Positions 14,000 to 43,542 of a stretch of DNA of 64,000 nt are shown one piece after another. Under the pieces are notes generated by a model that ran no database searches, had not been told where the DNA came from, and saw only the letters and a program-made list of their open reading frames with translations. The first letter of the stretch is position 1. Each line of letters begins with the position of its first letter. The translations under genes were made by a program, and so were the position numbers. The DNA comes from Phalacrocorax aristotelis (lineage: Eukaryota > Chordata > Aves > Suliformes > Phalacrocoracidae). The stretch lies in the NCBI RefSeq assembly GCF_949628215.1, contig NC_134279.1, positions 84,563,517-84,627,516 of the forward strand, read 5' to 3'.

Positions 14000-15350
14000 A
14001 TGCGGCACCCCACAAGCCTGCTGGGTCTGCTGGGCGCCCCTTCCCATCGAGCACGTGGGGAACGCACGCTGCCAGCACTGCCCACACCCTCCCACCCTGC
14101 CACACCGGGACACGCGACACAGCGAGCGGCGTTACCAGCTCCCCATCCACCGGGCCGCCCGCAGAGCGCACAAAGCAAGCTTTCTGCGGCGAGCGCCGGC
14201 CTCCCTCCCTACAACCACGGAAAGGCAAAGCCCGTGCCGCCAGCACCCCGCAGGCACGGCACAGACATGCTCTGACAGCCAGGGGCTTGGGACAGAGAAA
14301 CCCGCACGCCGGCACTGCCCTCGCACGGCGCGGCCCCACGCAGCGCGTCCCTGCCCCAGCGGCGGGGGCTGCACAACCACCGCACATGAGACAACCAGCC
14401 CCCCCGCACCGCGCCAGCACCGCGCCGCCCGCCGCGGCTCCCCACGCACCCCTGCGGCTCTGGCCCCAGCCCCGCGCCGCCACGGCGGGGCCGGCAAGGC
14501 GGCACCTCCGCCCGACATCCCCGCCCGCGGCCCCCGCCCGACACCCCCGGCGCCCCCACCCGCGCCCCTGCTCGCATCCCGACGCGGCCAGACGGGCTCC
14601 GCGGGTGCCGGGCGCGGCTCGGGGCACCCAGCCCCCGCCGCTCCCGGGGTCGGTGCCGGGCCGGTGCCGCGCCGGTCGGAGCCGCGCTCCCCCGCCGGCG
14701 CCGGGCCGGTCCCGCTCGGCCGACGCGGGCCGTACCTCTCGTCCCCGCGGGCTGCGCGGCTGCGGCAGTGCCGAGCAAGAGCGTCCAGCCGAGTGCCGGT
14801 AGGGCCGCGCCGAGCCGTGCCGAGCCGAGCCGAGCCGCCCCTCTCCGCCCCGGCCCGCCCCGCGCCGTGCCCAAGTGTCCGGGGCCGGCCCGCGCCGAGC
14901 GGCCCCGGCCCGGCCCCACACCCGGTACGACGAGGACGGGTCCCGCACCCCCGGCCACCCCCCCCGGACTGGGGTCGGCCCCACCGGGGCCCCCACCGCG
15001 GCTGGGCTCTGCTCCAGGGCCGGCACCGGCCCCCCGGGACGGAGCCCCTGGGGCTGCCCCGCTTCTCCGGGGCCGCTCCGGGGGCCGCTGCCCGCTGCGG
15101 GACGTCAGACCTGGGCCTTCCTCCGGACAGCCCTCCCTGCTCGCCCGTGGAGGGTCCCCGAGCCTTGCGCCCACCTGTGTGGCCGTGGGCATTGGTTCCC
15201 ACCAGCCCAGGGGCACCGAACTCCCTGTCCAGCCTGGGTGACCCACGGCAGCCTCGGGTACAGGGATGGGGCTGCTGACACCCTTCGGAGCGGCTCTCGG
15301 CACGGCAATCCAGAGAGCGCAAAGGTGCAGGGAAGGGCAGGGCTGTACAC
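14000..15350 (-). promoter_or_regulatory. CpG island, likely LOXL3 promoter and non-coding first exon
   Basis: Very GC-rich with abundant CG dinucleotides (for example repeated CCGAGC and GCCGAG words at 14,800-14,860). It lies upstream of LOXL3 on the minus strand and 3' of the OGA-like gene, so LOXL3 is the only visible gene it can start. A minus-strand donor candidate, GAGAG/GTACGG at about 14,735, could end the non-coding exon 1; this is inference. Long open frames on both strands here (up to ~540 codons) are composition artefacts. Confidence 0.6.
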
Positions 15351-16495: not shown

Positions 16496-19400
16496 TCAGA
16501 GGAGACGTCCCAGGAGCCGCGCACCAGGAGAGCTGCCCCAGGCCACTGGCAGGGCGACAAAGCCCAGCTTGCTGTAGAAGCTCAGCTGCTGCCGGTCAGC
16601 GGCACTGACCTCGCAAAACACTCCCCGCGACCCTGGAAGGGAGGTGAGAGGTCAGGCCCCTGGCACCAGGAACCCAGCGCTGGGGCCGGGGGCCAGTGGC
16701 TGTGACACCATCCATAGGGCAGTCAGCCTCTCCTTTGGCACTGGCTGCCTGCGTGATGCCTGGAGACACAGGTTCATGTGTCCCCGATGCAAGGGGAGGG
16801 CACAGTGCCTGGGAGCTGGGGCCAGACTGCGTCAGAAAGGGGATGGGGAGCCTTGGTGAGGGCTACCCCAGTCCCGTGCTGAGACATGGGGTGCAGGTAG
16901 GGCCAGCTTCCAGCTCTGGGCTGGGCAAGGGAGCAGTCAGGATGGGGCTGTGCTGGATCAAGGGGGCCTCAGTCCCCCCCAGCATGGGGAAGTCATGCTC
17001 ACCGTTGGCCCTGAGTGCACTCAGCAGGCAGATAGCCAGGCTGCGACTGGCCCCCACATCCAGCACACGGGGGGCTGTGCCCAGCTGCACCAGGGAGGGG
17101 AAGCGCCGCAGCACAGGCAGGGGCACAGCTGGTGGCTCTGTGTGGAAGAAGAGCAGCGCTTCTTCCAGGGCATCCTGCAGGAGACAAACACAAGTGAGGA
17201 AAACCCTTCCATCCTCCCCATACCTGCTCTCCCCTGCTCCAGCACCCCCTCACCTGTCCCAGAACCGGGGCACCTGTGCCCAGGTCTCGGGGGTATTTGT
17301 GCCGTATGGCTGGCAGCCAGCTGCTGTCTCGCTGTTGCAGGAAGCCTTCGGCGCAGAGTGCTCCGGCTGCATAGCCACATGGACCACCCTCATCCTCCAG
17401 CACAAATGTGTACTCGGGGCTCAGGCTCAGGAAGCTGCCCAGCAGCCTGCCGGCCAGAGCAGGAGCACTGCTGAGATGCCACCCGGAGCCCAGCCTGCCC
17501 CCGGGAAAGCTCAGAGCAGCCAGCCTCCTCCTTCCTGCCCCAGTGGGACAGCACCCCAGTGCCCACCGGACCATCCCTTTGAGACCCCCCACAGCAGAAG
17601 CCCTCGGCCAAGGGGAGCCACCGCAGGCCCCCCTGCAGCCAGGTTGGACAGCGCGTCCATCCCCACAGCAGCTGCCAGGACCCAGCTGGACATTAGCGCA
17701 GGGACTGCCCTCCCTGCCCCCTCCCGCCGTGGTGCAGGCAGAGCTGGTCCCTGCAGGGATGCGAGGAGAGGCCACTGCCTCACACCACAGCGCTGCATCG
17801 CCCAGCACACGGCCAGGCTCACCACACGCCTGGCAAGAAGGAGCCCTGGAGGGGCCACATCTCACCTGTCACCGAGGAGATCAGGGTGGGCTGCGAGGAT
17901 CTCCGCGACTTTGGGGTCACAGTCCAAACTCTCCTGGCACATTCGGTAAAGCTCTCCCTGGAAGACCCAGATCCACCTCAGCCCTGGCTCTGCCTGCCCT
18001 GCCCAGCCCCTGCCCCACTGCCGCCCCTGCCACAGCCCCGGCCGGAGCACGGTGTACCAGCAGCTGCCCAAATTGACCATTAGGAGGGACTGCGACCGGG
18101 GCTGTGGCCTCCAGTGCGTCCTGGCCAGGGGAAGGTATGAAGGTATGTGCTTCGGCTGTCCAAGGGTGCTGGCATCTGTGCCAACTGATGCACCGTGCAT
18201 CGCCTTCTGCTGGCCTCTGAGGCTCGTTGGCGCAGCACAGCAGCACTTTGAAATGAAAAATTGGCATTCCAGTCAGGCACCCCAGAGCAGCAGCTGCTGA
18301 AGAAATGCTGCTCGCCCCAGGACGGAGCGTGCTCAGAGCAGCCAGAACCGCAGCGGAACCAATACTGAAACACAAGTCTCCACAGAGCATGTGCAAAGGG
18401 GAACATCTCAAAATTTCCCATCTTGGTCAGATTTCAGTTTGCTGCCACTCACAGGATTAGCAAAAAGAACATCCTGGTAAAAGCATTGCTTCGCAAAGGA
18501 AAGGCTGCCCTGATCACCGAGCGACGAAAGCGGGATAGTGCCCTTCTGAGTGCTATTCCCAGAAGGGGCTGAAGTGCTTAGCTGGATTTTTCCCTCAAAG
18601 TTTCACTGGATACAGACATTCAGCTTGTTCAAGTTTAGCCTGATCAGACGAAATCTGACAACAGGCGATTGAAAACAAGCTTTTGCAATGGGAACTGCTG
18701 GCAGCTGCAGTCTGGTATTATAATCTGCTCTCATGTGCTTGCTGTTATTTACTCCTCTGTTATTTACAAGCGCTGCAGCTGTGCATCGCCGGGTACTGTA
18801 TTTAGCAGGGATGTGCAGTTGTGTCCATGATGGCGGGATCTGCAGCATCAGCATTTCCTATAGGTAGGAGAGGCAGCTGGGTGAGGGAGCGGGGTGTTCG
18901 CTGCAGGCTGTGTGGTACGTGGGAACCCAGGGCTCTGCTGGATTTGGCAGCAGTTTGTCTTGTGTGTCCACCCACTTCCACATTCTCCTTTTCCCTCCCC
19001 AGCCCACTGAACTGCTGGGACGTCAAACAGGGCGGGGGGGGCTGGCAACAAGCAGGTCACGGCTGCCTCTCCAGTGGGGAATCATCCTGTAAACTGGATG
19101 AGTGAAGGAGGGACTGATTTGGACATGAACCTCAACAGGCTCAGGCTGGAGATCAGGGTACTCTGGAGGTCGCCCTCGCAACCTGGCGACCCCATGTCTG
19201 TGCCAGTTTATCTGTGGCTGTGCCTGCCCCTGCTGAGTCGGGTGTCCCTCTCCTGCTGCTGGCGGCCAGGGAGGGGCTCTGCCCAGGCACTCGTCACAGG
19301 GAGGTGGGTGATGGTCCCTGCCAAAGCTGCTGGCCACAACACCCGCTCTCCAGCCCAGGGGCTGACACACTGCTGGACACAGCCCCCAGTGATCTGCCCC

Positions 19401-22400
19401 AGGCTGGCCTACTTCGAGCAGGGACTGGACCCCAGAGGTCCCTTCCCACCCGCATCACCCTGCACTGCAAGCTCAGTCTTGGGGTCAGCAGCAGACGAGC
19501 ACGTATCTCATTAGCACACATACAGCACAGGCCATGCAAAAGCGAGCTCTGGCCTGAGTGGTGCAGGCCACCCCTTTGGTCTGTGGCTCCCACCTTGTCC
19601 AGGGGCAGCAGCGGGCGCAGGAGGTACAGCTGGCTGGATGGGAAGAGCGGAGGTGGGTGGTAGAAGAGGTCACAGCTGTTCCCCACAGGCAGCAGTGCCT
19701 GAAAAAGATACAGTCCCTCAAGGAGCAGGCTGTCCTGGCTCCAAACCTTGCCCTGCAGCGGGCGCAGGAGGGTCCCTCTAAGGCGCCCTAAACCCCAGGA
19801 GCCGCAGCCAAGGTGCAGAGGCCTGGTGCAGCTCTGCCTTCCCAGGCTTGCAGCAACCCAATGAGCAGCAGCTGGGATCCTGGCTTCCCAAGAGCTCATT
19901 CACTCCCCACAGGTATGGGCATGCTCTCACCTGGAATTCTCCAAAGAGGCCCCCACGACGTGCCCAGGGCTCAGCGTCTCCCCCCAGCAGGATCGGGGCA
20001 GTGATGCTCTGGCACCCTGGAGGCAGCAGGAGACAGGTGTATGCAAGGTGAACAAAAACCTTCTGGTCCAGGGGGAGATCAGCCTCCATCACACAGCTAC
20101 TTCATGATCCACACTGGTCACAGCTCCAAGGATCTGCCCCCACAGCTGTGCAGCCCAGGCATGGGACCTCGCCTGGGCTCAGGCAGCAGCCCCATGCATT
20201 GGGGTAGCAACACACCCTCTGCAACAGGGCTCAAAGTGGGGGAATGGGGAAAGGAATGATCCTGCCAGCATGAAAGGTGTAAGCTCCTGGCTACAGTGGA
20301 AAGATGCAGCCTGGCACAGAGCAGTGTGCTGCTTTGCTGCCCAGCCTGCCAGCTCTGCAGCACCTGTGGGAGCTTGCCCTGCACGCAGCTGCTTCCCTGC
20401 GGAGGTGGTCTAAGGCTCACAGCCCCATCTCACACTGAACTTGGAGACTGTCTCAGGTTGGCGTCTTGTAACAGTTGTTGGTTAGCAACCAGGAAACCCT
20501 AAAACAGAGGAACAGGGGCTTCCAAAGTGATGCACGGGCATTCAAAATCCAACCTCACCTCTGTCACCCAGGGCGTTACTGCTCCCAGTGGCCCATGGAT
20601 CCCTTGTACCAGAAAGGGTAAGGGGTCCTTGCGTTAAGAGGGCTGAGGAACCATGTCCTAGAAATAGGTGTTCCTTCTAGACTGTGAGAGATGGTGAAGA
20701 GCTGCTCCGATGACTGCCCTGTCCCCAGCAGCAGTGCCGCATCCTGCCTCGGTGTGTCAGGGCGCGCAGCGGTGCCAGCCTTTCCGTGGCCATTCCCGCT
20801 CCGCTTGGCAGGCAGAGCATGGGAAAGGGCAGCCCAATGGCGAGTGCTGGCTGCTGCTCCGGGGCTGGAGGTGACGGAGGGCAGCAGCCAGGGCCCCACC
20901 ACCCAGGCAGCACTGGTACTTACAGCCAAAGCAGCTTCCCCAGGTGCCCTTGGGGTCAGGGTCGCAGAGGAGGTGGCCATCTGCAAAGGAGGTGAGGTGG
21001 TGAGCACGGGGCATGGGTCAGCGGTGGGGATGGTGTCAAGGGGAGGTGCACTGCCAGGAGAGACCCTAGCACACCTGGCTGGACACAGGGACCGCCTCCC
21101 AGAGGTTGGGGTCCCAGAAGCCTTCATCTATTTAGGTGGGGAAACAATGGATCACCACAGACAAGCTTCAGATGACCTGTGTGTGTTGCAGTGCGTGGGA
21201 GCCCCTGCACTTCACCATGGCTGGATTTGGCCAGGGTGCGAATATGTGCTACAGGGCCACAAGGGCTTGCTTGGGGCTGGCATCAGCCACATACCCAGCC
21301 AGAGGATGAAGGCACTGGCAGCCAGCAGCATGTTGCGGATGTCCCAGAGGTAGGGGTGGAGGTCGTAGAGCAGTGCCCGTCCGGCGCTGCTGACGAAGCG
21401 GCTGTGCAGGCGGCATGTCTGAGCACAGAGCAGCTGGAAGGACTGGGCTCGGCTGCGCCACTGTGTGCCCTGTGGATGGACCAGGTGTCAGCGCAACTGT
21501 GACAGGCACCATCCCACAGCAACGCCCGGGCCAGCCTTACCTCGCCGGCATCGGGTGCCGTGGCTGGGACCCCCACACTGAGGCTGTTTGCTCGGAGCCA
21601 CCGAAAGTGCTCCAGGAGATGCTGCGCCAGTGGCCCATGATGGTAGGGCAGGTAGAAGAGCTCCACCAGCATGCGCACCTCCCCCAGGGTCAGTGGTGCT
21701 GTGGAATTGGACCTGGCCTCCTCAAGGGTCAGCAGTGCCGCAGGGACAGACCCAGTCTCCATGGGGGTCATTGATGCTGTAGGGCTGGTTCTGGCCTCCT
21801 TGGGGGTCAGTGGTACCATGGGGCCAGATCCAGCCGCCTCCAGGGTCAGCAGAGCCATGGGGCTGGACCTGGCCTCCTCTGGGGTCAATGGTGCCATGGG
21901 GCCAGGGCTGGCACCAGCCCCATCAGTGAGCGGTACTGGGGGGTCAGGGCTGGCACCAGCCCCATCAGTGAGTGGTACTGGGGGGTCAGGGCTGGCACCA
22001 GCCCCATCAGTGAGTGGTACTGGGGAGCCAGGGCTGGCACCTGCCCCAGGCCCTGGGGGTGTGTCAGCCCTGCTGACCTCAGGCTGCATACTGCTGGGGG
22101 GCTGGGGGGAGCTGCCATCCCCTGTCCTGGCATCACTGGTGGGTAGGGGAAGGTTCTGGCTGGTGTTGGCCCCACTGCTGCAGCACATGGGTGGGGCTGG
22201 GCTGTGGAGAGTCTCCGTAGCCACTGGGGTTCCTGCAGACTGGGCACTCCCAGCCACAGTAGGCAGAGCAGAGGAGGGCTCACAGCTCGCTCTGCTCTCC
22301 GCGGTGAGCTGGTCCCCATCCCCTGTAGGGCTTTGCCGACTGCCAGCGGGTGTCCTGCTCCCACTGCCCTTCTTGGGCTCCGAGGTCACCTTCCTCATTC

Positions 22401-25400
22401 CTTCTCCTGGTGCCACGCTGCAGGGCTCAGGGCCATGCTGATCTGCCCCACTGGGAACAGAGTTGTGGGGCTGGGGGTCAGGCATGACCTCCTGTCCTCC
22501 CTCTGTGCCAAGCTGCAGCCTCGTTCCTCCCTTGAGGCTGATGCTGGGGTGTCCTGGGGTCCTTCCTCCTGGCAGAAAGGAGCAAGGGGGCAGCCGCTCT
22601 GGCACCTGCATGGAAATGGCTGTGGGGGCAGGACAGCCCTGGGGGTGGTCATGCCAGGAAGCTCCATCTCTGAGCTGGCAGGGACTGGGGAGCTGCCAGG
22701 ACCATAGACTTTGCATTGCTCTGTGCTCTGGAGCTCAGGTCTCCATGGCTGGTGAGGCCACAGGCATTGCAGAGGCAAACATTGCAAAACACTAAGCTTG
22801 CACCTGGCTGGACCCCCTCTTCCAGAGCCGTACCACAGCCCCAGGCTCCCAAGCTGCCAGATGAGGAGACCCCCTCTGGGATGTGTCCAGGGCAGGAGCA
22901 CCCATGGGGCAGTATGGCGCAATGGACACCCATGCCTGCCCACCACAACACACACAGACACCGCTACCGCACCAGCCAGAGCAACCCATCCAAATGGGCA
23001 GGGCATGGGGCTCCCTCACCCCACTGAGCTCCCCACAGAGCTGGTCCAGTGCTCCAGAGGGGGTGAGGGATGCTACACAATGCAAGTTCATCACCTACCT
23101 GGCTCCAAGGCCTGCTGGTTTATCTCTGCCACCCAGTCATGCAACGCCAGCTCCAAGGCCTCCTGGGAGCTGTAGCTTCCCTCCGGTGGGCCTTGGCTGT
23201 CTCCCAGGGCTGCCGCAGTCTCCATCCCTAAGGAACTGGAGCTCATCAGCCTGGGCAGCCCCACTCTTTGCTTGATGGAGTTATCCCATGCCACACAAAG
23301 GGTGGGCAGTGTCCCCCACCCCTCCCCACAAGGAGATGCCCCAGGATGGATCCCATGCCCTGGGATGCCGTGTGGTGCCCAGCCAGGTGAGACGCCTCAC
23401 CCAGGCTGCCATGCAGGAAAGCCTTCAGGGCCATGGCAAAGATGGGCAGCGATGGGCAGGGCTCTCCCTTGGGTGCACAAGCTCACTGCCGGCACCGGGG
23501 CCCCACATACAGAGCTGCCTGGGGCGCTGAGGCCAGATACCTGTGTGATCAGCATGAGCACAGCTCCCCAGCTCGCTCTGAAACCAGCTGCCCAATGTGT
23601 GTATGGGGATGAAGTTGGCCTGGAGCTCGCAGTTGGGGTTGAGGAGCAGCCCACGGAGCCTGGGCATGAGGCCGGGGGCACGTCCCGTGTAGGGGCCCAG
23701 GAAGACACGTCTGCAGTCATAGTCATTGGCATACAGGTTGTCCCAGATGATGGGGCGGCGCTGCAGGACACCCTCCACCTCCTCCAGCAGTGTGGCTGAG
23801 AGCTCCTGTGACACCACCTTTGGGCCTGGAGCATCACGGCACAGATGTGCGTGAAGCACACAGGCAGCACAGTCCATCATGCACACGCACAACCGGGACA
23901 TGCACACATGCACTGAGCATGGAGATGAGGGTCGAGTCACCCCACTCTCCCTAGGCAGATGGAGAGCAGACCCACAGCCCGACCCGCTGCCTGCCTGCCT
24001 GGGGCTCCACACCCTAATGCTGAAAGGCACCACGACGGGCCTCTTGCTGGCGCCTCTCCTGGGATGGAGCCCGTGGCTGCAGGGTTTGCAGACGCCGGCT
24101 CTCACTGGGAAGCTGCACAGGGCCACACACCCCACAGAGCCGGGCCAGGCGCTCACCTGTCCAGATGACACCAATCCCTGGGAGCAGCTCCTGGCCAAGG
24201 GTCAACAAGTAGCAGGACTGGCTGGGGCTGGGAGAGCACAGAGAACTGCAGTACTCTGGGGAGAGAGCACAGAGCATCCCTTGAGGAGCAGAGAGGCTGG
24301 GAGAGGAGAGGCTGCCTGGGACAGGGGCTGGGGAGATGCATGGTGCAGCGAACACAGCATGCACGGCTGCTGAAGCACCAGCCCATGTGCAGCCTGGTCC
24401 TGTCCTAGTCCTGAGATCCCCAGGGCTCCCGCAGGAGCATGAGGGGGCTGAGGGGAGCCATGGAGGCTGTCAGGGCAGTCAGCTCTCAGCAGACACAGGT
24501 GCTGGGTGCAGCCAGCCAAAGGGCACCCTGGTCTGCTGAGGGGTGCCATGGCTGGCCAAGCGCCGGGCTCCCAGGGGCAGGGTGGCTGGGGCCACACGGC
24601 TGCAGGCAGTACCTGTAGGGCAGAAAAGGAAGACGGAGGGTTGGCCCAGCTCCTGGTACACCTCGTTGGCCACAGAGGCCTGAGCCTGTGCCAGGGAGGG
24701 GAAGACATCTCTGTCAGCTTGGCACATGCAGGGGTCGATGTCGTCGAAGAGCAGCGCGAAGGAGTGGCACCCCATGGCAGCCACCTGCAGGAATGGGCAC
24801 AGGCTGCTAGGATCCCTGGGCAGCAGAGAGAAAGGAGGCAGCGAGCCCCAGACGAGCCCCTGCTGCCTGGGCCCCGTAAGGACAGCAGAGGTCTGGGGCA
24901 CCTGGACAGATGGGGTGCACCCCCCATGCCTGCGCAGCGGATGCTGCGCACAAGGCCCAGCTGCTCTGCAGGCACGCGCCAGTCCAACAGCCACGGTCCC
25001 CCTCACTCCAAGCCGTGGGCATGGCCATGTTTGCCGTGGGCCAGGAGCCCTTTCACACCAGAGTTCGTGCTGTAGTGGCCCAGAGCCTGCTCCCACTGTG
25101 TCAGTGCCAGGCAGCCCCACTCGCCATCCACCACATCCGCTCTCCCCGCACCGCACCCCTGCATAGCCCTGCAGCACTGGGAGCCACGCCGCAGGAGCGG
25201 AGGCCAGCAGAGCCTCAGGAGGAGCCTCACCGTACACCCAGGCAGGTGCTGCCTGCACCAGCGCTGGCTGGGGGCAGCTGGAGACGTGGCTGGGCACAGC
25301 GCTGCCTGGGCTGTGCCGTGGGGAGGAGCAGCTGCCACGGAGCAAACCCTCCGTGCTGGCGGCTCTTTACCTTCCCTGGGGACCAGGGGCTCAGCACCAG

Positions 25401-28400
25401 CCTGCACCATGCTCCGGTGCTGCCCAGCAAGCTCTGGGGCTTGGCCAGTCCCTCTCCTGCCCCCAGCACTGCTTGGTAGCAGTCGGGCATCCACAGAGCC
25501 CTCGGCTCTCTGTCACTGTGACAGGGACAGCATGTCTGCCACTGGGCACCCCACAAAGCTGCTCCCTGATGCACAGCAGCAGGAGGGGTTTACAGCCCCA
25601 CACCAGCCTTTGGGGTGGGCATGGGGCCCACACACAAGCATGCATACCCCTCGCCTGGGAGCAGTGGGATGAAGGAACGGCCCACGGTACCTGCCTGAGT
25701 TTTTGCTGCAGCAGAAGCCGATCCCCGGCACTTGAAAACACCATGTCCTGGCCAGCAGAAATGGCAAAAACAAACTCCACACCCTGGTCTTGGGCAGCTT
25801 CGATGAGAGACCGCATACAGGCTGGGGACAAAGCAGAGGGGGTGCTGTGAGCACTGGGAGGCAAGGGATGGAGGGAGGGAGTGGGAACCACAGCAGCCTG
25901 AAAGGAAGGAGCTACAGGCATCAGGAGGCATGAGGGAGCATCTGGAGGGGAGACAGCTTCCAGTCCCTTGGGACACAGAGGACTCTCCACAAGGGTCTGT
26001 GGGTCCCAGCATATTTGAGCATACTGACAGAGACCCACGTGGGGAGCTCCCCATGCTGGGTAGAGTCTTAGGCTGTTCCATGTGATGGGCAGGGTCTGGG
26101 GAGGCTCCTTGTACCAGGCAGGGTCTGGGGGTCTCCTTGCACTAAGCAGGGCCTGCAGGGCTCCATGCAATGGGCAGGTTCCTGTCAGGAAGAGTGGTAA
26201 CAGCCAGCCTGACCCTGCCTGACATGCAGGCCACGCTTCACCCTTGAGGACCTGGGATGCTTGCAGCCCACCCATGCTGGGGCCCAGCAGAGCCGCTACC
26301 TGCCTCATGCTCTGTGTAGGGCTCTCGCCAGAGCAGCCGGTGCTTCAGCTCATCCTTGGGCGCATACATGTAGCAGTTCAGTCCCCAGCGTTTCAGCCTG
26401 TGCAGCAAGGACAAGGGGTCACACAAGGGTCCAGACCAGCTCTTTGCAAAGAGGCATCCGGACACGTGCCAGCCCACAACACCAGGAGCTCCTCAGCACA
26501 CAGTGCCCTCTCCTTCCCCGGAGCTGCACTGTGCCCTGCAGCCTTCCAGCCTCTGCTCCCCCAGAGCGCGACAGCTCTTCCCCTGCACAGGGAGCCCTGC
26601 CCTGCGTACTTTCAGTGGCCGCACAGTGCTGAGCCAAACAATTTGTGTTGTTTAGGGATCTCCAGAAAGACAGTGCATCTGGATGAGAAAGCCTTGGTGA
26701 CCGGCAGGACATTGCCTCCTGGGAGATGGGTTGCGTTAACACCTTTGCTGTGGAAAAAGCATGTCTGAGGGCCCAGCTTAGCCTAACAGCCTGTTTTAAC
26801 CACTTGATCAGACTGCATCATCATAAGGCGCTTTCTGGCCTCAAAAAGCACAAATTCCTTCCAGAATCTCCCCAGCAATTCATGACTCACTGGAAATTAT
26901 CTGGAGAGGGCAGACACCTCCCTAGACAGCTCTTTTGGCACTCCTGTATGAAAGCCATCTGATATATTAATTTATTTTTATTTATCCTCCTTAGTAGACG
27001 ATGTTTTACATTTTCCCACAATGAACAGACTGTGAAGCTCTTCATGTACCACGTGATACAAGTGCCTCATCTTGTTTCTTTCCAGAGAAGAAAAACACCA
27101 ATGAACATACCGCTCACAAGTGCAAACACGTGAATATAATCCCAGTATAGTACCAGACAAGACCATCATTAGACCTCCTCATTCCTAATATAAATGTCAT
27201 GAACATAAATGTGATAAACATACTAATATAGATGTGATAAACATCACATCTTGCTTTCCTTCCTGAGTGTTTTCACCAAATTTTCTAAGCTATATTTTTC
27301 TGTATCTGCATCTCTGGTTCCTGCACTATGGTCCGTACTCCCATTGTGACTGCTCACACTGTCACCAGTGCACTCTCACAGCACGGCTGGTACATTTCCT
27401 GCGCAGTGCATGGCTGCCAGTGCCATCACCTGCAGTCACCAGCACATGGCCCTGCTGCCCCTGGTCCACTGCCCAGCCACCACAATGCACTGCCCACGCT
27501 GTCACCGGTGCTCTGCCCCTGCTGTGACTGGCACGCTCTCCACACCATCCCCAGTGTGCTGCCGATGCCATCACCAGGGCAGCACCCACACTGACCACGG
27601 CACCATCTAGGCTGCGACCATCGTGCTGCCCATGCCGGACGCCCCATGGGAGGCCTCACAGGGCCCCAGTCTGTCGGTGGCAGGTCCTGTCAGTGCAGCT
27701 CATCCCACTGACGGCCAGTGCATGGGCACCAGCTGCTAGGAGAGGGCTTTTTCTCTCCTGCATGGATCAACTCCCATCCCAAGGTGATTCTCACAACCAG
27801 TCAGTGACAAATTCCGCCCACATTCTTCTGTCACAGGGACACATGGTGACACACAGACATACGTGGGGACTCACAGGGCCACAAGGGCCACCTCCACACT
27901 AGGCAGGGGTGGCAGCCTCAGGGTAAAGTGGCCACCTGTGCCCATGGCGGAGTGATGTCAGTTTGCTGTGCCGTCTGTTTCCACAATGATAAGCCCAGCT
28001 CCAGTGAGGCTGGGCTGGCTGGAAGCACCTGCCTTGTGCCCTTGCTGGGAGTGCACGGCAGAGGGGACGGTGGCCCCGGGCAAGGCAAGCTTGCTGCTGG
28101 TGGCAGTGGGCACGCGGCATGCTGTCCTGCAGCCAGCACACCCACAGGGGCTGGTGCTGGCTGGCAGTGCCCAGGCCCACGCAGTTCAGAGATGAGGCAA
28201 TGGGCGCTTGTCCTGCCAGGTCGGCGCCCGAGGTGGGCTTCCAGACTGCTGAACACGCCACGTTCTCTCTTACACTGATCTGACTTCCCATTTCCAGCCC
28301 TAGCCCCTCTGCCTGATCCCTGACACCCCTTCTGTGCACGGGCTGCCCTAGCCGACCCACCCCTCAGGGCAGAGCAGCTTTTCTGGTGCCTCCAGAGGCG

Positions 28401-31400
28401 GCATTTTCAGGCTCGCGCAGCCCCCACGCTCCTCTCCTAATGCTTCCCAGCTGCCATCGCCCCTCCCACGGCACGGGCAGCAGAGTCCGACCCTGTCCCA
28501 CTGACAGCTCCCTGTGGGTCTGCGCCCTCATGGGAGCTCCCGTGCCAGCTGCGCGGTGCCAGCACAGAGGCACTAGTGCCCACCCAGCCCCTTCCAGGCC
28601 CCATCCCTAGACCCCACTGCCTTGGGGCACCCAGCCCTGTCCCGGGCCCCCCAGCCAAGCACATCTGGCTGCAGCTGGGCTGTGGCAGAGTCCCAGCACC
28701 ATCTACTGGCACAGGGCAGTACAGCCCGCATCTGTCTGGGTGCCCTCGGGCTGCCCATCCATCCCGCAGCCACCACACCCGGGCCCAGGGCGGGGGAGTC
28801 TTCCCCCGGGCTGGACCCAGGGGTGCAGGAGCGCTGGGACAGAGGGAGCACTGCAGAAGCAGCCCTGGGAGAAGCATGAGCCCCCTTGTCTGCCATCGCC
28901 CCAGCATCCCAAAGGCAGGCCAGGTCTAGGAGCTTCCCTCCAGCACATTATCCCTCACTGCTTCTGCCTTCACAGCACTCTGGCTTCCACCTTGTCACTC
29001 TGCCACAGGCTAGTACCTTCAGAGAGGAAAATTCAGAGTACTTGCCATTGAAAGAGAAGTTTCCTCTGTTCCATAGACCATGGTCTCCCATAGAAACCTA
29101 TAAAAGGAGGAAAAAGGAAAAAAAAAAAACACAACACAAAACACAGTTGTCAGTAACTGCCTTAAAACACAGTCTCTCTCTGTACTATTCCTAAGTGCCT
29201 GCTCTTAAACCCAGAGATCCACCAGTTGCTCACTTCTGGGTACCTCAGACGTCTGTCATCCTGCTATGACCTTGCTGGGTATTGGTATTCAAGCAAGTGG
29301 GTATAATGTCTGTGCTTCCATCCTTCCCAGAAAGAAGCAGCTGGGAAGAATTGCACAAGGTAGCACTTAACCTCAGCGGGGGAATTTGCGCAGTAAAAGG
29401 CAAGCCTAGAGGACACAGCTGAGGATGGACTAGGTTATAGGGCTCTCTACCATGACCTTGGGGTGCACTGAAGCACAGAGCTATTGTACATCCATCCCAG
29501 AGTTTTCTGCCTGGGGATTTTCTTCTTTACAGAGACCAGCTGTGTGTCCCTCTGCATCTCTCTCTGTGCAATGTCAGGCTGTGTCAAGCAGAGCACTGTC
29601 ACTCCTGTATGGGCTATAAAAGTTGCTCTCTCTATCTTTAATCACTGCACAACTCAAACTGCACCAAAATTGCTCCGACACAGCTCTCCCCTGCACCCTG
29701 CAAACACATACCTACATTGCAGGAGGGCAGGACTTTGAGGCAGCATCCCTGTCCCATGGCAAGCTGTTCAGACCAGGGACACACAATCAACCCATAGGGA
29801 TGCCCATGAGTGCTGGGACTGTGACTCCACAGGACATTTCACAGACACCTTGTCTGTCCCCCACTGGAAAACACCGTCCCCACAAGCTTGCAAACAGAAA
29901 ATCCAGGGAGGGAAAGCACACCAGGGAGCAACCTTACCAGCTGTCTGCTAACAAAGACACTCATTAATGAGCACCAAGGCTGGCTGCAAGGACATTGCCC
30001 TCCCAGAAGGTTCACATCAACAAAACCAAACGCAGGAAATACAGATCTGGAGTCAGCAAATTTCCAAGTGTTTCTTAACATTTCCACTTCTGCTGCTTGC
30101 AGGCTTTAGGTGGTTGTTGGGCACCAGTGTCTGACACAAGCTTGAGGCTGCAGCACCACAGCAGCTGATAGTCTGCCCTGTGCTCTGCATGGCAGGGAAC
30201 CAGTCTGTGACTGGATATAGTGAGTGGAGCACTGCCGGACATGCAGCAGCCATTCCCCTTTTGGGACCTCTTTCAAGGAGGAGCCCTTCCCATTTCTGCA
30301 TGTAGGAAGACCTGGGAGGTGCAAAGTTGTCTGCAAAGCCAGCGAGAAAGAATACCCAGTGGAAAGCAAGCCAGTTCACTAGGGGACAATAGAGAATAGG
30401 CAGCTAAATGGGTTTGGAGAGATGCAGATTTGACAGCTTCTTAAAAGGAGGTTAAGGGGAACCTGTAAGTGTTCCAGCACAGACCTGAAATTTAGCAAGA
30501 GAAGAATCTTCAGTCACTTCAAGTCTCTGCAAGATCTGGCAGCTGCAATGTGAAGTCTCACAGAAAATACATTACATCTTGAAGAGTGATGGCAATTAGC
30601 CAACAAGGCAGCTTTCCAGTTTCGGATGGGCTCTGCATCACAGGCAACTTCTAAATCAGTCAATGCACTTTCTGGCAGACAAGGCCAACAGGAGCAGATA
30701 TTCAGGGAAGCAAACGCATTCGCTGAACTGGGTGGTGCACAAGGGCAGATCGCAATTACTTTGTTAGTCTGGGAGAAAGGACCAGCTCTCAGCGTCTGGC
30801 ACTGATACCAAGCATCACCAGCATTGCCCAGCATTTCCCCAAGACACCTGAGTGCACCAAGCTGGCCTGCCTGGGAGGGGACCCTGATGCCCTGCTCCCT
30901 TTGGCAGGAGCCCACCCTGCAGCCCTCAACACCAGCCTTGGGCAATGGTGCGGTACGTTGCATCACAGCACACACTGAACATTACCTTCTTTGCAGATAG
31001 GTCTTCTACCTGCTTGAGCATCTACACAGTCATTCCACCTATTTTGAAATAATATGTATTCACCTTACTAGCGATCCCCCACCGTGCATGGGGCCAAATC
31101 TGTGGCCACTCAAGGATCCTAGTATTTCCGTGATAAATAGATTTTCCATTTCTATAGGAACTCCTGCTCAGCTCACAGTGAGGTCCCAGGAGTCTCTGTA
31201 CAGCACCTGCCTGCAAGTGCCTCACTCACACTTTGCTGTGAACTGACACTGCCTTGCAAGCATGACACTCACCCCATACACACTCCCTGCCAGCAGCGCT
31301 CTGTTGAAAATGCCATCCTAGTGTATTCTGCCCACTGAAGTGGCTTAAACTGTACCAGCAAAATCTCTATCTGTGGCTGCATCTCCAAAGGAATGATGTT

Positions 31401-32728
31401 GGTGCTCTGCTTTTCTGAAGACAGATGAGCACTGATGAGTGATGCTTTGCGTTTGTACCTCAGCCCTCCCATGGCCCACATCACTACATCAGTAACATGT
31501 CACAGCACTACTTGCCAAACTCTGGGCCATCTGAGATGTCCCTCAGCAATTTCTTCACAACTGTTAGCAAAGTTCTTATGAACACATTGGGAAGCAAAGT
31601 CCCTAGGCCACAACTGTTCCTGAGCCCCTCTCCTGTCCTGCGTGCAGGTCACCCAGAGGCACCAGTCCGTCTGCGCATTGTGGCTGCTGCTAGCAATGTC
31701 CTGAGCATCAGGAGGGAGCAGGGGGCTCTGTGTTGGACACACCACTCCTGGCCTGCCTCGGCCCTGCTACAGCTGCACCCTGCTCAGCAGCCTGCCTGCC
31801 GCAGCACTGCCCTGTGTTCCCTGCCAGGGCCCGTGCTACCAGGGTGAGGGATGCCTTTCCTTCCTCACTTTCTAGGGACCTCCTCCTCCTGGACTGGCTC
31901 TGCTGGCAGCATCTGTGTCCTTCTCTTTCCCAGGTCAGCTTTCCTATATCAATGATTCTTGTCTGACTCATATTTCTTTTTACTATCAACCTCCCTATCT
32001 CTGCACTTTCTATTTATTTTGTGTTTATTTGCATGGTGCTTTCGCTTCCTCCCAGGCAAAGCAGTGGGCAATGGGCTTCAGCGGGGTACTGTGCTGCCAG
32101 GAAAAATGGAGATGCTTCTGCCTAGTGGGTGCCAAGCCTGGGTCCAGAGGTGTCGTGCTGCAGAAAAAGGAGTCGAGGGCAGGAAGGGGCAGAAGGACAG
32201 GGCCGGGCCGTACAGAGCTGCCATGAGAGACCAGGCCCTTCCTGGCCAGCTCTGGGCACGGCCCAAGACAGCATTGCACTGCGGGCAGGGAGGCAGTAAG
32301 AGCACACACAAGGATGCTGCTCCACACCCAGGGCAGAGAAAAAAACCACTGCAGAGTGCTGGAGATGGAGATGGAGACAGAGCAGTGGGTCCCCATGACA
32401 CACTGCAGCGGGGGGGGGAGGGGGGCTTGGCTGTGCTGGGATGGCTGCGGGGTGCAGTAGTGCTGTGGAGAAGGGCTGGGGAGCATCAGTGGGGGGTGCT
32501 GGTCCCACACCCGTGGGCAGAGATAGGGTGCTGTGCAGGGGTCCCTGCCTCCCCAATACCCGGGATCCCGGGCACAGCTCGGGTCCCGGTGGCCCTTCCC
32601 GGCCCCTGCTCGCTCTGGGTGGACCGGGCCAGCCCTTGCAATGCCCGGGCGGGGCACCGGCCCCAGCCGCGGCCCCGGAGGGACCTACCTTCCACCACGC
32701 CGCAGAAGAAGCGCGGCCGCCCCGCCAT
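16496..32728 (-). CDS. Protein O-GlcNAcase-like paralogue, complete 16-exon gene (997 aa)
   Basis: Predicted GH84 beta-N-acetylglucosaminidase removing O-GlcNAc from Ser/Thr. Exons: 32689-32728, 29046-29097, 26300-26397, 25691-25821, 24613-24784, 24157-24255, 23541-23825, 23099-23227, 21541-22568, 21295-21469, 19931-20016, 19594-19698, 17866-17957, 17254-17446, 17003-17174, 16496-16632. They total 2,994 bases, phases all agree, and the frame ends in TGA. The catalytic domain (~10-300) aligns to human OGA at a constant offset of 53: G14-F15-Y16, K45, D121-D122 (FALLFDDID), Y166, W225, N227, D232 and N260 match the human active site. A linker at ~336-623 is repeat-rich; the stalk follows ([24 protein letters not shown]); the acetyltransferase-like domain is at ~766-997 ([21 protein letters not shown]). 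Human OGA is 916 aa. The N-terminus is only 9 residues before FFCGVVEG. It is a paralogue, not OGA itself: identity is moderate and the LOXL3-DOK1 location differs. No inactivating change was seen. Confidence 0.92.
17003..20016 (-). other. OGA-like exons for the acetyltransferase-like C-terminal domain
   Basis: Exons 11-15 plus exon 16 (16,496-16,632) match the human OGA C-terminal domain in order: [77 protein letters not shown] and LGRLL-stop. In human OGA this domain is regarded as a pseudo-acetyltransferase without confirmed activity, so it may serve binding or stability. Confidence 0.88.
19340..19470 (+). mobile_element. Degenerate CR1 3' end fragment in an OGA-like intron
   Basis: GAGCAGGGACTGGACC followed by CAGAGGTCCCTTCCCACC resembles the CR1 3' end (gagcaggaggttggactagatgacct...ggtcccttccaacc). 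It is short and old, lying in intron 12. Confidence 0.5.
21660..22045 (-). repeat. Coding tandem repeats in the OGA-like linker
   Basis: In exon 9 a 42-base unit recurs at 21,904, 21,946, 21,988 and 22,030, encoding about four copies of [14 protein letters not shown] (first and last diverged). Adjoining it are about six diverged 39-base units (13 aa), such as [26 protein letters not shown] and [13 protein letters not shown]. The last one, [13 protein letters not shown], runs directly into the stalk domain. All units keep frame. The mirror open frame on the plus strand is a shadow. Confidence 0.88.
24613..24784 (-). other. OGA-like catalytic exon with the Asp-Asp pair
   Basis: Encodes [17 protein letters not shown] and on through SVFLFCPT. 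The DD pair (residues 121-122) corresponds to human D174-D175, the residues that polarise the N-acetyl group and act as general acid. Borders are CCTGCAG/GTGGCT and ACAG/GTACTG. Confidence 0.92.
26398..29045 (-). other. OGA-like intron 2, with simple-repeat patches
   Basis: GC-AG intron of 2.6 kb. It holds an AT-rich patch at 27,185-27,250 with two to three copies of AATATARATGTGATAAACAT-like words. A degenerate 24-base-scale tandem repeat lies at 27,330-27,645. No coding exon is recognised. Confidence 0.65.
27330..27645. repeat. Degenerate minisatellite in OGA-like intron 2
   Basis: Words like GCTGTCACCAGTGC, GCTGTCACCGGTGCTC, GCTGTGACTGGCACGC and GCCATCACCAGGGC recur with roughly 22-30 base spacing, pointing to an old expanded tandem array. 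Unit boundaries are uncertain. Confidence 0.5.
29046..29097 (-). other. OGA-like exon 2 (active-site loop) with a GC donor
   Basis: This 52-base micro-exon encodes [16 protein letters not shown], equivalent to human OGA FYGRPWVMEQRKELFR, which includes the substrate-binding Gly-Phe-Tyr at the mouth of the barrel. The acceptor is TTTATAG. To keep phase with exon 3 (which starts G-CTG-AAA), the donor must be TG/GCAAGT, a GC-AG intron. The nearby GT (CAA/GTACTC) would break the frame. Confidence 0.85.
29098..32688 (-). other. OGA-like intron 1, no other feature recognised
   Basis: A 3.6-kb intron between the initiator exon (donor G/GTAGGT) and the FYGRPW exon. An A-rich tract lies at about 29,104-29,131. 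I see no second gene or confident repeat. Confidence 0.6.
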
Positions 32729-33479: not shown

Positions 33480-36470
33480 CCGTGTACCCCGGCGTCCGCA
33501 GCTGCGGGTGTTCTCCAGTGCAGGCCGAGGGCAGTTATTTCTCCCTCCTTTGCAGCTTCCCGGGACCCAAAAGCCCCAGGCCCCAGAGCTGTTCCCGCGT
33601 GGTTGGGTGTCATTATCCCCTCATATTCATCACTGAGCTGGCACCTTCCCCACCGGTGCCCGCATGCCGGGCCCAGGGTGTGATGCCTCTCTGGCTCAGC
33701 AGGTCCATGATACCAGGACTGTTTCATGTGCTTTGCCTGTGACTCACCTGCTTGCATATGTCAGGCTGCTATTTATTTGCCTGTTGTCACACTGCTTTCA
33801 GCTGTTGACATGTTTGGCTCGTGATCTTCTCTGTCCCACAGGTTCTGTTTTGCAGAAGTGCTGCCATGTCATTAGTTCCCTGTCCTGCCACTGCACAGTC
33901 ACTGTGGTACCTGTCTCCATGCAGGACTGTGTGTTTGATGTCACTGAATCGCTTTGCTCTTTTTCTGACCACTTTTCTTGTTTGTCAGTCTCATTGTAAG
34001 CAGGACCTGTGTTCTGCATCATCCCTGCAGCTTTCCCCAGCTAAATGGCATCATAACCCAGACAGCAAGTACATGGCTTTGTTACCATGCAAGTATGAGG
34101 GATGGAGCCAGGAGGGAGCAGAGGTGCACTCCTCCTGCAGCGAGGCACTGCCAGGTGCCCTCCCAGCAGCTGTCACAACCTACAGCTATTTTATCTAACC
34201 ACAGGCATCGGCTTGCACATAAACTGTGGGCATCAGAGGCCTAGAAAATCAGGATCTGTGGCATCTCCCTCTTCCCTCTGCAGGGTAATTTACTTCTGTG
34301 AAGGCAAGTCATCGTGTCTGGGCCATCAAAGCAGCAAGGAGTCCAAGAGTGACTGACCAGCAGTGACCTGGCAGGGAAGAAGCCATCAGAGTGCTTTGCG
34401 GGCTAGTGAGGTCTGCCCAAAGGTCAGCAGTATGGCATGGAGGAGGCTGTGCAAAGCAAGGAGAGCCCAGATCACTTAAAGCCTCAGTGTCTGAACAGGG
34501 GTCTCATAACCAAACCCACACAGAGCAATAAAAACTGTGTGCTGGGTGCAGGACAGACAATGACACTGTGGGAAAGCCAGCTCAGTGCTACCACGTTGGG
34601 TTATTCCTGTGCAGGGAGCAACTGCTGGGGCTTGCTGGGCACAGGCCACGCTCATGCTTGCTCTTTGCCTCACGGCCTGCACCAGCCCCTGCTGAGTTTT
34701 GCTGCTGGGGAACACTGAGTTCAAGCCTGGCCCTGGAGAAAGCTGTTGGGGCAGGTGGAGCAGCCAGCCATGGCAGGGTACTGGGGGAGCAGCCCAGTAC
34801 ACCTGGAGTGGCCACAGTGCCCAGGGACACGGCGTGGTTAGAGGTAGAGAGGTGTGGATGACTTTACCCTGTCCACACAGACTGTCAGGGAAGGAAGTCA
34901 GGCAGGGCTGTGCATATACAGGTGTGTTTGCTGGGATTCTTCCCCTTCCCTGTTGCCTCTGGGAGCACCTTTCTATTTGCCCCATGGTTTTCTTGGACTT
35001 TGAAGTTGAGCTAAGTGGCCTCTAATTCTTCACTTCTGTTTTTTTCTCCTATCAAAGACAGGCACCTCATCCATCCTCTACCGGTTCTCGATATTACCCT
35101 AATTTATTTCAGTCCAGCCAATCTGATCCCATTTTCCCTTTTCTAGCATGAACATACGCTTCTGTCACTCATGTTAGTGGTGTTAATCATGCGATTGCAG
35201 CAACCCTCCTCAGTGTAGCCTGAGGGGAAGAAGCCATTGAGCACTCAAGTCCTGTCACCTTCTGCTGTCCTTCCCAGACTCATAGGACAGTGGGACACAT
35301 GGGCTGCTCAGCATCCTCCTACTGACACCTTCCTTTTTGAAGGTTTTCTTGCAATCCATATTGTTTCTTTCTGGTTACAATTCGTCTCATACTTTGGCTT
35401 CCCTGATATTCTGGTTTGTTTTTTTCCTGTTCCTCCCTAGTTTCTATTTTTATGCCCTTCCTTCTGAAGTTTCAGGTCATTATCTGAACTATGAGGCCTC
35501 CTTTCCCCAGTGCTGGGATGGTTTCCATTGTGCACTATTGCTTATTAAAGCCCTGCCAGATTTTCTGAATGCATTTTGTTGGATGTCACGTCTAGCTCCC
35601 TGAATTCCTTAAATTTTCTCTGAAAGGCACTTTGAAGTTGCTCTCCACTTTGACACCCTCGAGTGCTTCCTCTCTTTTTTCTAGAGTAAAATGTCTGGGA
35701 GAGCCTCCCCTGGGTTTCCTGCACTCCCCGGCCCAAAGGCCTCGGCAGCCCAAGCCCATGCAGGCAGCCTCAGAGGATGCCTGGCTGCGGGGGTTGCGCA
35801 GGAGGCTGCTTCAGGCAAGGGGCCAGGATAGTCCTGACCCTGTGGCAAGCTGGTTTAATCCCTCTCCTTCCCCAGGTGACCTGCCTTCTGGAGGTCGGAG
35901 CCACTCCATATCTAGGGCGTGCCCAGCAACATCCTCCTCTTCCGTGTTTGTTCTTTATTGACAAGCTGCACCCCTAATTCACAGGCCAGTCCTCAGGGTG
36001 TGTTACGCTGGTCAGCTCATCTTTTTAGATGTCTACAAAGACCTCCCATTGCAGCTGTTTGCTCCCTGCAAAACCTGCATAACTGCCCCGGTACATGGGG
36101 CAAGGACCATGCGTGCTGGGGGTGATGGCCCAGGGTGCTGATCTCCCAGGGCGCCTTGCGGGCTCTGGCCACAAGCTGTGGCTCACAGCACCCACTCTGA
36201 GCTTGACCTTGCTCAGCAGCTGCTGTCTTGAGATGTGAAAGCTGCAGGGTGGGAAGGCTCCCACGGCTGGCGAAGGGGTAACAGGGATAAGGCCAAGGCT
36301 CCATCTCTTCAGGACAGTGTGGGACTTGTCTTCTGACGGCTCTGGAAGCCAAGACCTCTCATGTGGGATGCAGAGAGCATGGCAGAGCGGAGCCAGCCAC
36401 AGCAGGGGCCAGCCCCTTCCCCAAAAGGGTGCAGCTTTCCCACATCTGCCAGGGCACGGTCTGCCGCTGC
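33480..36470. other. Intergenic region between OGA-like and DOK1 promoters
   Basis: About 3 kb between two divergent CpG islands. It holds a possible antisense LINE relic at 34,980-35,700 and otherwise nothing recognised. Confidence 0.6.
34980..35700 (-). mobile_element. Possible ancient CR1/L3-like LINE (antisense)
   Basis: AAGTTGAGCTAAGTGGCCTC followed by TAATTCTT, then ATCAAAGACAGGCACCTCAT, resembles the antisense of the CR1/L3 reverse transcriptase end seen in many amniote genomes. TACTTTGGCTTCCCTGATAT further on fits the same strand. The match is very diverged. Confidence 0.4.
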
Positions 36471-36479
36471 CTGTCCTCC

Positions 36480-37350
36480 CGCACGACCCTGGACGGAAGC
36501 CGCACCCCGGCACCCAGGGCCGTGGGGCACCGCACCGGAGAGCGGTACCTGAGCACGGGCGGTAGCGGTGTGCGGCACCACGCGCACGTGCTCGGCGCGC
36601 GCACCCACGCGCACCCGCACGCCCAGTCTCGCTCCCCCTCCGCCACGTGCGTCCCCCCCGCGGCCCCGCCCCGGCCCCGCCCCCGGGGGCGCGGGCGGCG
36701 GCGGGCGGAAGCGCGCGGAGTGTCGCGGCGCGCGGCGGTGCGGGATGGACCTGCCGGCCAAGGAGGGGCCGCTCCTCGTGCAGCACAGCCACAAGTTCGG
36801 CACCAAGGTGGGCGGCCGCGCGCCTCTCGGCGGGTCGGGGTAGGGGGGGGAAGGGCCGGGTCGGGACCGCACGCCGGGCCGGGCCGGGCCGGGCCGGCTC
36901 TTTTCCTCCCCTCCTCCCTGGGGCCGTATGGTCTCCGTACCGCCGCCGCGCCGGGCCCCCGCCGCCCCCTCCCCCCGGCGCCGCCGTCGCCCCCGCTGCC
37001 GCTCCCGCTGGGCGCGCTGCCGGGCCGCGGGCGCCGCCCGGAGATTGGGGAAGTGGGGCCAGGGCCGGCGGCCGACAAAGCCCCGGCCCCGTGCCCGGCC
37101 GAGGGGTCCCGTTTCCGCCCCTCCCCGCCGGGGGCCGGCCCCGAGGGGCCCGTCTGAGCGCGGTCGTGCCGGCGGGCGCGGTCGGAGCTGGTCTTACGGG
37201 GCGCCCGGGCGGAGGGCACCCCGGGGCCGCCCCCGGCGAGCTGCCGGCCCCACCGCCGCGCCCGGCGGAGCATCCCGGGCGCCCTCATGGGAGCCTCCCC
37301 TGCGCCGCGCTGCCGCCGGGCCCGGCCCCGTGTGACCCCGCTGCCTTGCA
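36480..37350 (+). promoter_or_regulatory. CpG island promoter of DOK1
   Basis: Dense CG content over exon 1 and intron 1 of DOK1, with GGCCGGGCCGGGCC runs at about 36,877-36,897 and CGCGGCGCGCGG just before the ATG at 36,745. The island covers the likely transcription start a few tens to hundreds of bases upstream. Confidence 0.7.
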
Positions 37351-43300: not shown

Positions 43301-43542
43301 CCCCCAAGCCCCAGGCAGCCTTGATCCCTAAAGGTGCCGAGAGGAGTGGGGACCCTGGCAGGCGGCGGGGGAATGCTGTCCCTGAGAAGGCGGTTGTCAA
43401 ACCTAGCCTCAACAGCAGCAACAACAACAACGTGGAGGTGCTGTACAGCCAGGTGGTGAAGCCCCAGCATGTGCAGAAGAAGGAGCAGTCTGTGGATGAG
43501 TGTAGTTTGTCACCTGTCTACGAAGACTTAGGAGAGATATAG
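36745..43542 (+). CDS. DOK1: Docking protein 1 (complete, 585 aa)
   Basis: Membrane-recruited adaptor that is tyrosine-phosphorylated and dampens Ras/MAPK signalling through RasGAP. Exons 36745-36807, 37352-37648, 40432-40543, 40699-40871 and 42430-43542 have canonical borders and compatible phases. A PH domain spans ~1-118 (MDLPAKEGPLLVQHSHKFGTK, LYPASQHGVARLEFFD). The IRS-type PTB domain spans ~160-262 (FWVTVQRTEAAERCELRG, WPYRLLRRYGRDKVMFSFEA, the last spanning exons 4-5). The tail has tyrosines in YSEPLD, YSDPID, YDEPEG, YDEARP, YEYPYNPSTDDYSVP, YSQVV and YEDL; YDEPEG matches the human RasGAP-SH2 binding site. At 585 aa it is longer than human DOK1 (481), mainly in the tail. Position next to LOXL3 and M1AP confirms orthology rather than DOK2 or DOK3. 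Confidence 0.95.
37649..40431 (+). other. DOK1 intron 2, nothing recognised
   Basis: A 2.8-kb intron separating PH and PTB coding exons. No coding motif, RNA gene or confident repeat. Open frames here have no domain features. Confidence 0.65.
40872..42429 (+). other. DOK1 intron 4, nothing recognised
   Basis: A 1.56-kb intron that interrupts the PTB domain between GRDK and VMFSFEA. No further feature seen. Confidence 0.65.

Follow-up and report, generated by a model that had tools for sequence, protein, structure and literature searches.

A 64,000-nucleotide stretch of the genome of the cormorant Phalacrocorax aristotelis (assembly GCF_949628215.1, contig NC_134279.1, positions 84,563,517 to 84,627,516; hereafter the window) carries an intact paralogue of the O-GlcNAcase gene OGA, here called OGA2. 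The encoded protein has a GH84 domain that is intact and retains the catalytic residues, as well as a stalk and a pseudo-HAT domain. From the comparison of sequences, we consider it rather likely that OGA2 is a second working O-GlcNAcase whose choice of substrates has changed. It probably dates back to the early vertebrate genome duplications, with a subsequent loss in mammals. The residues of the catalytic site are preserved and the entry to it is remodelled, which would favour an active enzyme with different substrates over either a pseudoenzyme or a redundant duplicate.

The cycling of O-GlcNAc on thousands of proteins is ascribed to a single transferase and a single hydrolase, with several isoforms formed from a single OGA gene in vertebrates (in the available part of PMC12494797), and metazoa other than Trichoplax are stated to have a single oga gene (in the available part of PMC4424335). 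OGA2 corrects this single-gene simplification in print for vertebrates. A description of OGA2 was not found in the literature searched, which mostly excluded subscription papers, so that it may be described elsewhere. In databases it is already annotated as 'protein O-GlcNAcase-like' (chicken LOC430422, for example, is the same gene), so that to them the gene itself is not new. The database entries seen hold predicted names only, and nothing on the age of the gene, the cleft changes or the cassette exon.

Gene structure and domains of OGA2

The OGA2 coding span runs from 32728 to 16496 on the minus strand, a strand that the initial annotation had left unstated. That annotation had described a complete and intact paralogue of 16 exons, and the corresponding reading indeed comprises 2994 nucleotides (nt) and 997 residues, with one terminal stop and, as claimed, consistent splice phases. 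This model is valid as one splice form of OGA2, but it missed a conserved exon of 57 nt (20924..20980, in frame, phase 1 to 1) between its tenth and eleventh exons. With this exon the translation comprises 1016 residues, and every letter equals the database protein P0001, 'protein O-GlcNAcase-like isoform X3' of Phalacrocorax aristotelis. Shuffled versions of the coding sequence (n=1000) contained a mean of 27 stops and a minimum of 13; the intact OGA2 frame is beyond chance. The introns are GT-AG except for intron 2, which has a GC donor (exon end ATG, followed by gcaagt). A model with another exon 9 acceptor and without exon 11 (1014 residues) was rejected, because P0001 and the condor protein P0002 show the downstream acceptor and exon 11. 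The features of the gene, by position in the window, are as follows.

16496..32728, minus strand: OGA2 gene (protein O-GlcNAcase-like), 17 coding exons, translation identical to P0001
32501..33500, no strand: CpG island over exon 1, presumptive own promoter (GC >0.6, observed/expected CpG >0.75)
32689..32728, minus strand: exon 1, start codon
29046..29097, minus strand: exon 2, followed by the GC donor
26300..26397, minus strand: exon 3, K45 (human K98)
25691..25821, minus strand: exon 4
24613..24784, minus strand: exon 5, catalytic D121-D122 (human D174-D175)
24157..24255, minus strand: exon 6, Y166 (human Y219)
23541..23825, minus strand: exon 7, W225, N227, D232 and N260
23099..23227, minus strand: exon 8
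21541..22568, minus strand: exon 9, encoding the long linker, which is of low complexity and contains short tandem repeats, and the beginning of the stalk
21295..21469, minus strand: exon 10, stalk helices; residue 727 corresponds to human S652
21323..21325, minus strand: codon of Leu727, the human Ser652 equivalent (position hand-counted from the exon table)
20924..20980, minus strand: exon 11, 57-nt cassette, a 20-residue segment replacing human G662 directly before the arm
19931..20016, minus strand: exon 12, arm region, with the Trp that corresponds to human W679
19594..19698, minus strand: exon 13
17866..17957, minus strand: exon 14, pseudo-HAT domain
17254..17446, minus strand: exon 15, pseudo-HAT domain
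17003..17174, minus strand: exon 16, pseudo-HAT domain
16496..16632, minus strand: exon 17 with the stop codon

In the translation, the linker exon (21541-22568, minus strand) contains about three near-identical tandem copies of an 18-residue unit, together with looser repeats.

The GH84 domain of OGA2 is recognised by Pfam (PF07555 NAGidase, E 2.8e-74). Against the solved human OGA structure 6hki, phmmer gives an E-value of 2.8e-219, and the alignment to human OGA spans the catalytic, stalk and pseudo-HAT (pHAT) regions, as far as human residue 914. Residue 3 of the window protein aligns with human residue 56, an offset of 53, and the first gap is found only near window residue 285-290, beyond all of the active-site positions named here. 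K45, D121, D122, Y166, W225, N227, D232 and N260 are all present in the window protein, in agreement with the initial annotation, which had placed these eight residues at human position minus 53. The stalk matches the solved human stalk chain 5uhk_B (phmmer, E 4.5e-44), with helices at 676-706 and 709-738 in the predicted structure, and the pseudo-HAT domain matches 6r45 at residues 803-1003. A Foldseek search with the predicted monomer model ranks human OGA structures first; a model calculated with a deeper alignment has a mean predicted local distance difference test (pLDDT) score of 66. The window protein has the catalytic residues, the domain order and the Trp residues at human positions 645 and 679 in common with human OGA (MGEA5, NCOAT; GH84). 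It differs from it by S652L and a 19-residue cassette in the arm, by the absence of the ~53-residue N-terminal extension, and by a linker without clear alignment.

Distribution, age and constraint

Three database searches provided 284 proteins, comprising 146 OGA2, 136 canonical OGA and two lamprey proteins. The 120 of 1549 matches listed in the first search are all birds by name, amounting to ~97 species by our own count, from ostrich, rhea and kiwi to passerines. The second search, with stretches of human OGA, gave none in the OGA2 class among the 120 of 5025 matches listed. OGA2 of alligator, saltwater crocodile, two caecilians, coelacanth, gar and Polypterus was found by a third, length-limited search (120 of 1480 matches listed), which would miss proteins longer than ~940 residues or ranking below those listed. 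A search of sauropsid, fish and mammal proteomes had been proposed in the initial annotation; OGA2 was recovered from birds and the groups just named, and none from mammals among the matches listed in the third search. At least six species have both OGA and OGA2, namely Athene cunicularia, Coturnix japonica, Catharus ustulatus, Microcaecilia unicolor, Polypterus senegalus and Latimeria. The longest contig listed for OGA differs in length from that listed for OGA2 in both Microcaecilia and Polypterus.

A tree was calculated by maximum likelihood from a choice of 45 proteins and 862 columns, with the root set on lamprey by assumption. It unites the 14 OGA2 rows in one clade (support 100/100), in which ray-finned fishes, coelacanth, caecilians and archosaurs follow the order of the species tree. 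The 29 canonical OGA proteins, including those of sharks, form a second clade (97/86). In a tree of the GH84 domain only, the OGA2 clade again receives 100/100 and the canonical clade 94/68, with the coelacanth shifting to the base of OGA2. Grouping OGA2 with lobe-finned OGA gave p 0.007, and grouping archosaur OGA2 with tetrapod canonical OGA was rejected with p 1e-17. On these clades and topology tests, the duplication into OGA and OGA2 is older than the bony vertebrates, and one of the early vertebrate genome duplications is its probable source. The initial annotation, which had confined the division of O-GlcNAc removal to 'this lineage', was therefore too narrow. We take the pairs LOXL3/LOXL4, HK2/HK1 and TLX2/TLX1 to connect human 2p13 with 10q24, where OGA lies, which would fit an origin in a genome duplication. 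That OGA2 should instead be a recent lineage-specific duplicate or a retrocopy of ordinary OGA is extremely improbable: homology fits such an origin and nothing else does, while the gene has 17 exons with introns, its GH84 domain is just 54% identical to that of bat OGA, and the tree and the last of these topology tests speak against it. Brienomyrus P0263, considered as a further OGA2, was discarded because the tree puts it within canonical OGA.

Between cormorant and ostrich, OGA2 is 88% identical in the GH84 domain, 72% in the stalk, 83% in the arm region and 85% in the pHAT domain, versus 55% in the linker. Such a contrast between conserved domains and a fast linker is expected from purifying selection on a working protein. 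The initial annotation had proposed purifying selection on activity, of which the constraint on the catalytic domain is borne out. The eight active-site residues named above are present as a complete set in 138 of the 146 OGA2 proteins. The remaining eight are either gapped (five) or have a changed residue (P0253, P0258 and P0259) at active-site columns, and may represent truncated or misjoined models. This conservation bears on a non-enzymatic role, in which OGA2 would bind O-GlcNAc proteins or serve OGA as a regulatory subunit with little hydrolysis. Retention of the stalk and the pHAT domain and the altered residues near the entry are compatible with such a role, but a binder would not need both catalytic Asp residues, which are kept along with the other named residues, and we regard it as improbable.

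Residue 652 and the arm cassette

To define diagnostic positions, 20 OGA2 sequences were compared with 22 canonical or lamprey sequences, with a cut-off of at least 18/20 and at least 21/22. By this measure 28 positions, fixed or nearly so in each, separate OGA2 from the canonical and lamprey group. Site 652 is Leu in 20/20 aligned OGA2 and Ser in 22/22 canonical or lamprey sequences, and S652L is present in 141/146 of the wider OGA2 set. What is notable in the aligned sequences is that Leu is constant within OGA2 and Ser is constant in the compared vertebrate OGA. According to the available part of PMC12494797, Ser652 is the equivalent of one active-site entry residue seen in Trichoplax OGA, the arm of the human enzyme (665-685) contributes to the peptide cleft, and S652F, a cancer mutation in human OGA, alters activity and enhances O-GlcNAc removal from PDLIM7. 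The mutant thus concerns the same stalk site as the change in OGA2, which naturally has Leu, not Phe. Other cleft positions were dismissed as OGA2-specific: F223L is undiagnostic, as lamprey OGA has Leu too, and positions 619 and 622 both vary among canonical OGA.

Directly before the arm, exon 11 adds 19 residues in frame and thereby lengthens this flexible element. The junction could be parsed in 123 of the 146 OGA2 proteins, while 23 remained unparsed, several of them with an insert visible by eye. An insert of 19 to 28 letters was found in 114/123 and a single G, the skipped form, in 9/123. The cassette segment is recognisable in Polypterus (DGHVLSDNHPFGSWRNCFHW), caecilian (DGRILSEQDSLGSWRGCFQW), alligator (DGRILADPDPQGTWRSCFRW), ostrich and cormorant, with 8 of 20 positions, counted by eye, identical across all five. 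Skipped forms occur in predicted models of gar, coelacanth and Rhinatrema and in one of two crocodile models, and from these models, which are predictions and not transcripts, exon 11 is read as a cassette exon.

A canonical teleost protein, P0215 of Myripristis murdjan, has a 19-letter insert at the cassette junction, which begins with DGRI and ends with W. It may represent a shared exon older than the duplication, or chance.

A known case of two OGA genes per animal is Trichoplax, whose TaOGA53 and TaOGA54 are reported as functional proteins (PMC12494797, PMC4424335, as far as the available parts of both go). One Trichoplax copy is without the HAT-like domain, whereas OGA2 keeps it; Trichoplax OGAs were absent from the tree sample.

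Proposed function and genomic surroundings

In the favoured interpretation, OGA2 would be expressed from its own CpG-island promoter and would work like human OGA, by substrate-assisted hydrolysis via the Asp pair, as a nucleocytoplasmic homodimer in which the peptide cleft is completed by the stalks. Which glycoproteins fit may be altered by Leu652 and by the 19 residues that are optionally inserted at the arm. Removal of O-GlcNAc could then be split between a general OGA that evolves slowly and OGA2, which evolves faster and the specificity of which might be switched by splicing. OGA2 would have arisen in the early vertebrate genome duplications, with a later loss in mammals. For the more specific proposal, namely that jawed vertebrates began with two O-GlcNAcases, that OGA2 is live with its substrate choice set by the fixed Ser652Leu and switchable by splicing, and that mammals lost it, we see the chances as evenly balanced. 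If true, the one-enzyme model of O-GlcNAc removal would be a mammalian simplification. How a single OGA picks its substrates is an open question, on which OGA2 bears: in this second, naturally occurring OGA the catalytic residues are unchanged, the entry residue differs and a segment of the arm is optional, so that evolution itself provides a test of substrate choice. Work with OGA removal or inhibition in chicken or crocodilians may face two enzymes.

Several observations weigh against an old, active OGA2 with altered substrate choice. The shark split is moderately supported, with p-AU (approximately unbiased test) 0.028 for OGA2 plus bony-vertebrate OGA to the exclusion of sharks and the lower support of the canonical clade with GH84 only. 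In the 862-column tree, long branches are seen in three OGA2 rows and an odd residue make-up in ten, all of them OGA2 and nine of them archosaur. OGA2 of turtles, lizards, frogs, teleosts and sharks was not among the matches listed in our searches, which were limited. The entry residues are called non-conserved, and Trichoplax has Tyr464 at site 652 (PMC12494797, available part), so a change at this site is not unique to OGA2; the three other entry positions (223, 619 and 622) are not OGA2-specific. In the predicted structure, pLDDT is below 50 in the insert-bearing arm (741-774) and in the active-site loops 47-50, 201-204 and 230-235, so that the model says little about these places. The evolution of OGA2 is also much more rapid than that of OGA. 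Between hawk and dipper, the GH84 identity is 93% for OGA2 (Buteo buteo, Cinclus cinclus) versus 98% for OGA (Buteo japonicus, Cinclus mexicanus), and the pHAT identity is 90% versus 100%, indicating weaker constraint in OGA2 than in canonical OGA. Finally, 5/120 listed bird models are flagged LOW QUALITY, possibly due to assembly error or decay.

Part of this would suit a redundant copy, with the same substrates as OGA, kept for dosage or tissue expression and with cleft differences that are neutral drift. The unchanged catalytic residues and domain order, the faster evolution in every domain compared and the differing site 652 of Trichoplax (PMC12494797, available part) agree with it. Drift alone, however, would hardly preserve Leu652 in all 20 aligned OGA2 or the identical cassette positions from Polypterus to birds, and we hold redundancy to be a possible but rather unlikely explanation.

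The fast evolution, the flagged models and the failure of our limited search to detect OGA2 in several vertebrate groups could also reflect a gene that is decaying or unexpressed in birds and intact by chance in this species. Against decay stand the models in ~97 bird species, from ostrich to passerines, the slow GH84 domain versus the fast linker, and the numbered isoforms of many listed OGA2 entries. Such isoforms are usually built from RNA-seq (RNA sequencing) data in annotation pipelines of this kind. We consider decay slightly less probable still than a non-enzymatic role, and prefer the active second enzyme with altered substrate choice.

The initial annotation had placed the gene between LOXL3 and DOK1. 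On the DOK1 side this is supported by a DOK1-like gene with a PTB half at 42256-43539 (best match docking protein 1, E 3.4e-15) and also a PH domain; a CpG island and the PH-domain frame lie at the start of this gene, at 36301-37700 (plus strand). The other neighbouring frame encodes an SRCR domain, with CD163 and other SRCR proteins as best PDB matches and LOXL2 at E 2.1e-17, which leaves the name LOXL3 unconfirmed. Between OGA2 and the SRCR gene, a CpG island at 14001-15200 has long open frames on both strands, and Pfam gave no match for the one open frame tested there; the region could be the 5' end of the SRCR (LOXL3) gene. An open frame at 55107-55571 (plus strand) matches the endonuclease/exonuclease/phosphatase domain weakly (E 4.3e-05), narrowly missing the Pfam cut-off, and presumably represents a fragment of a CR1-type retrotransposon.

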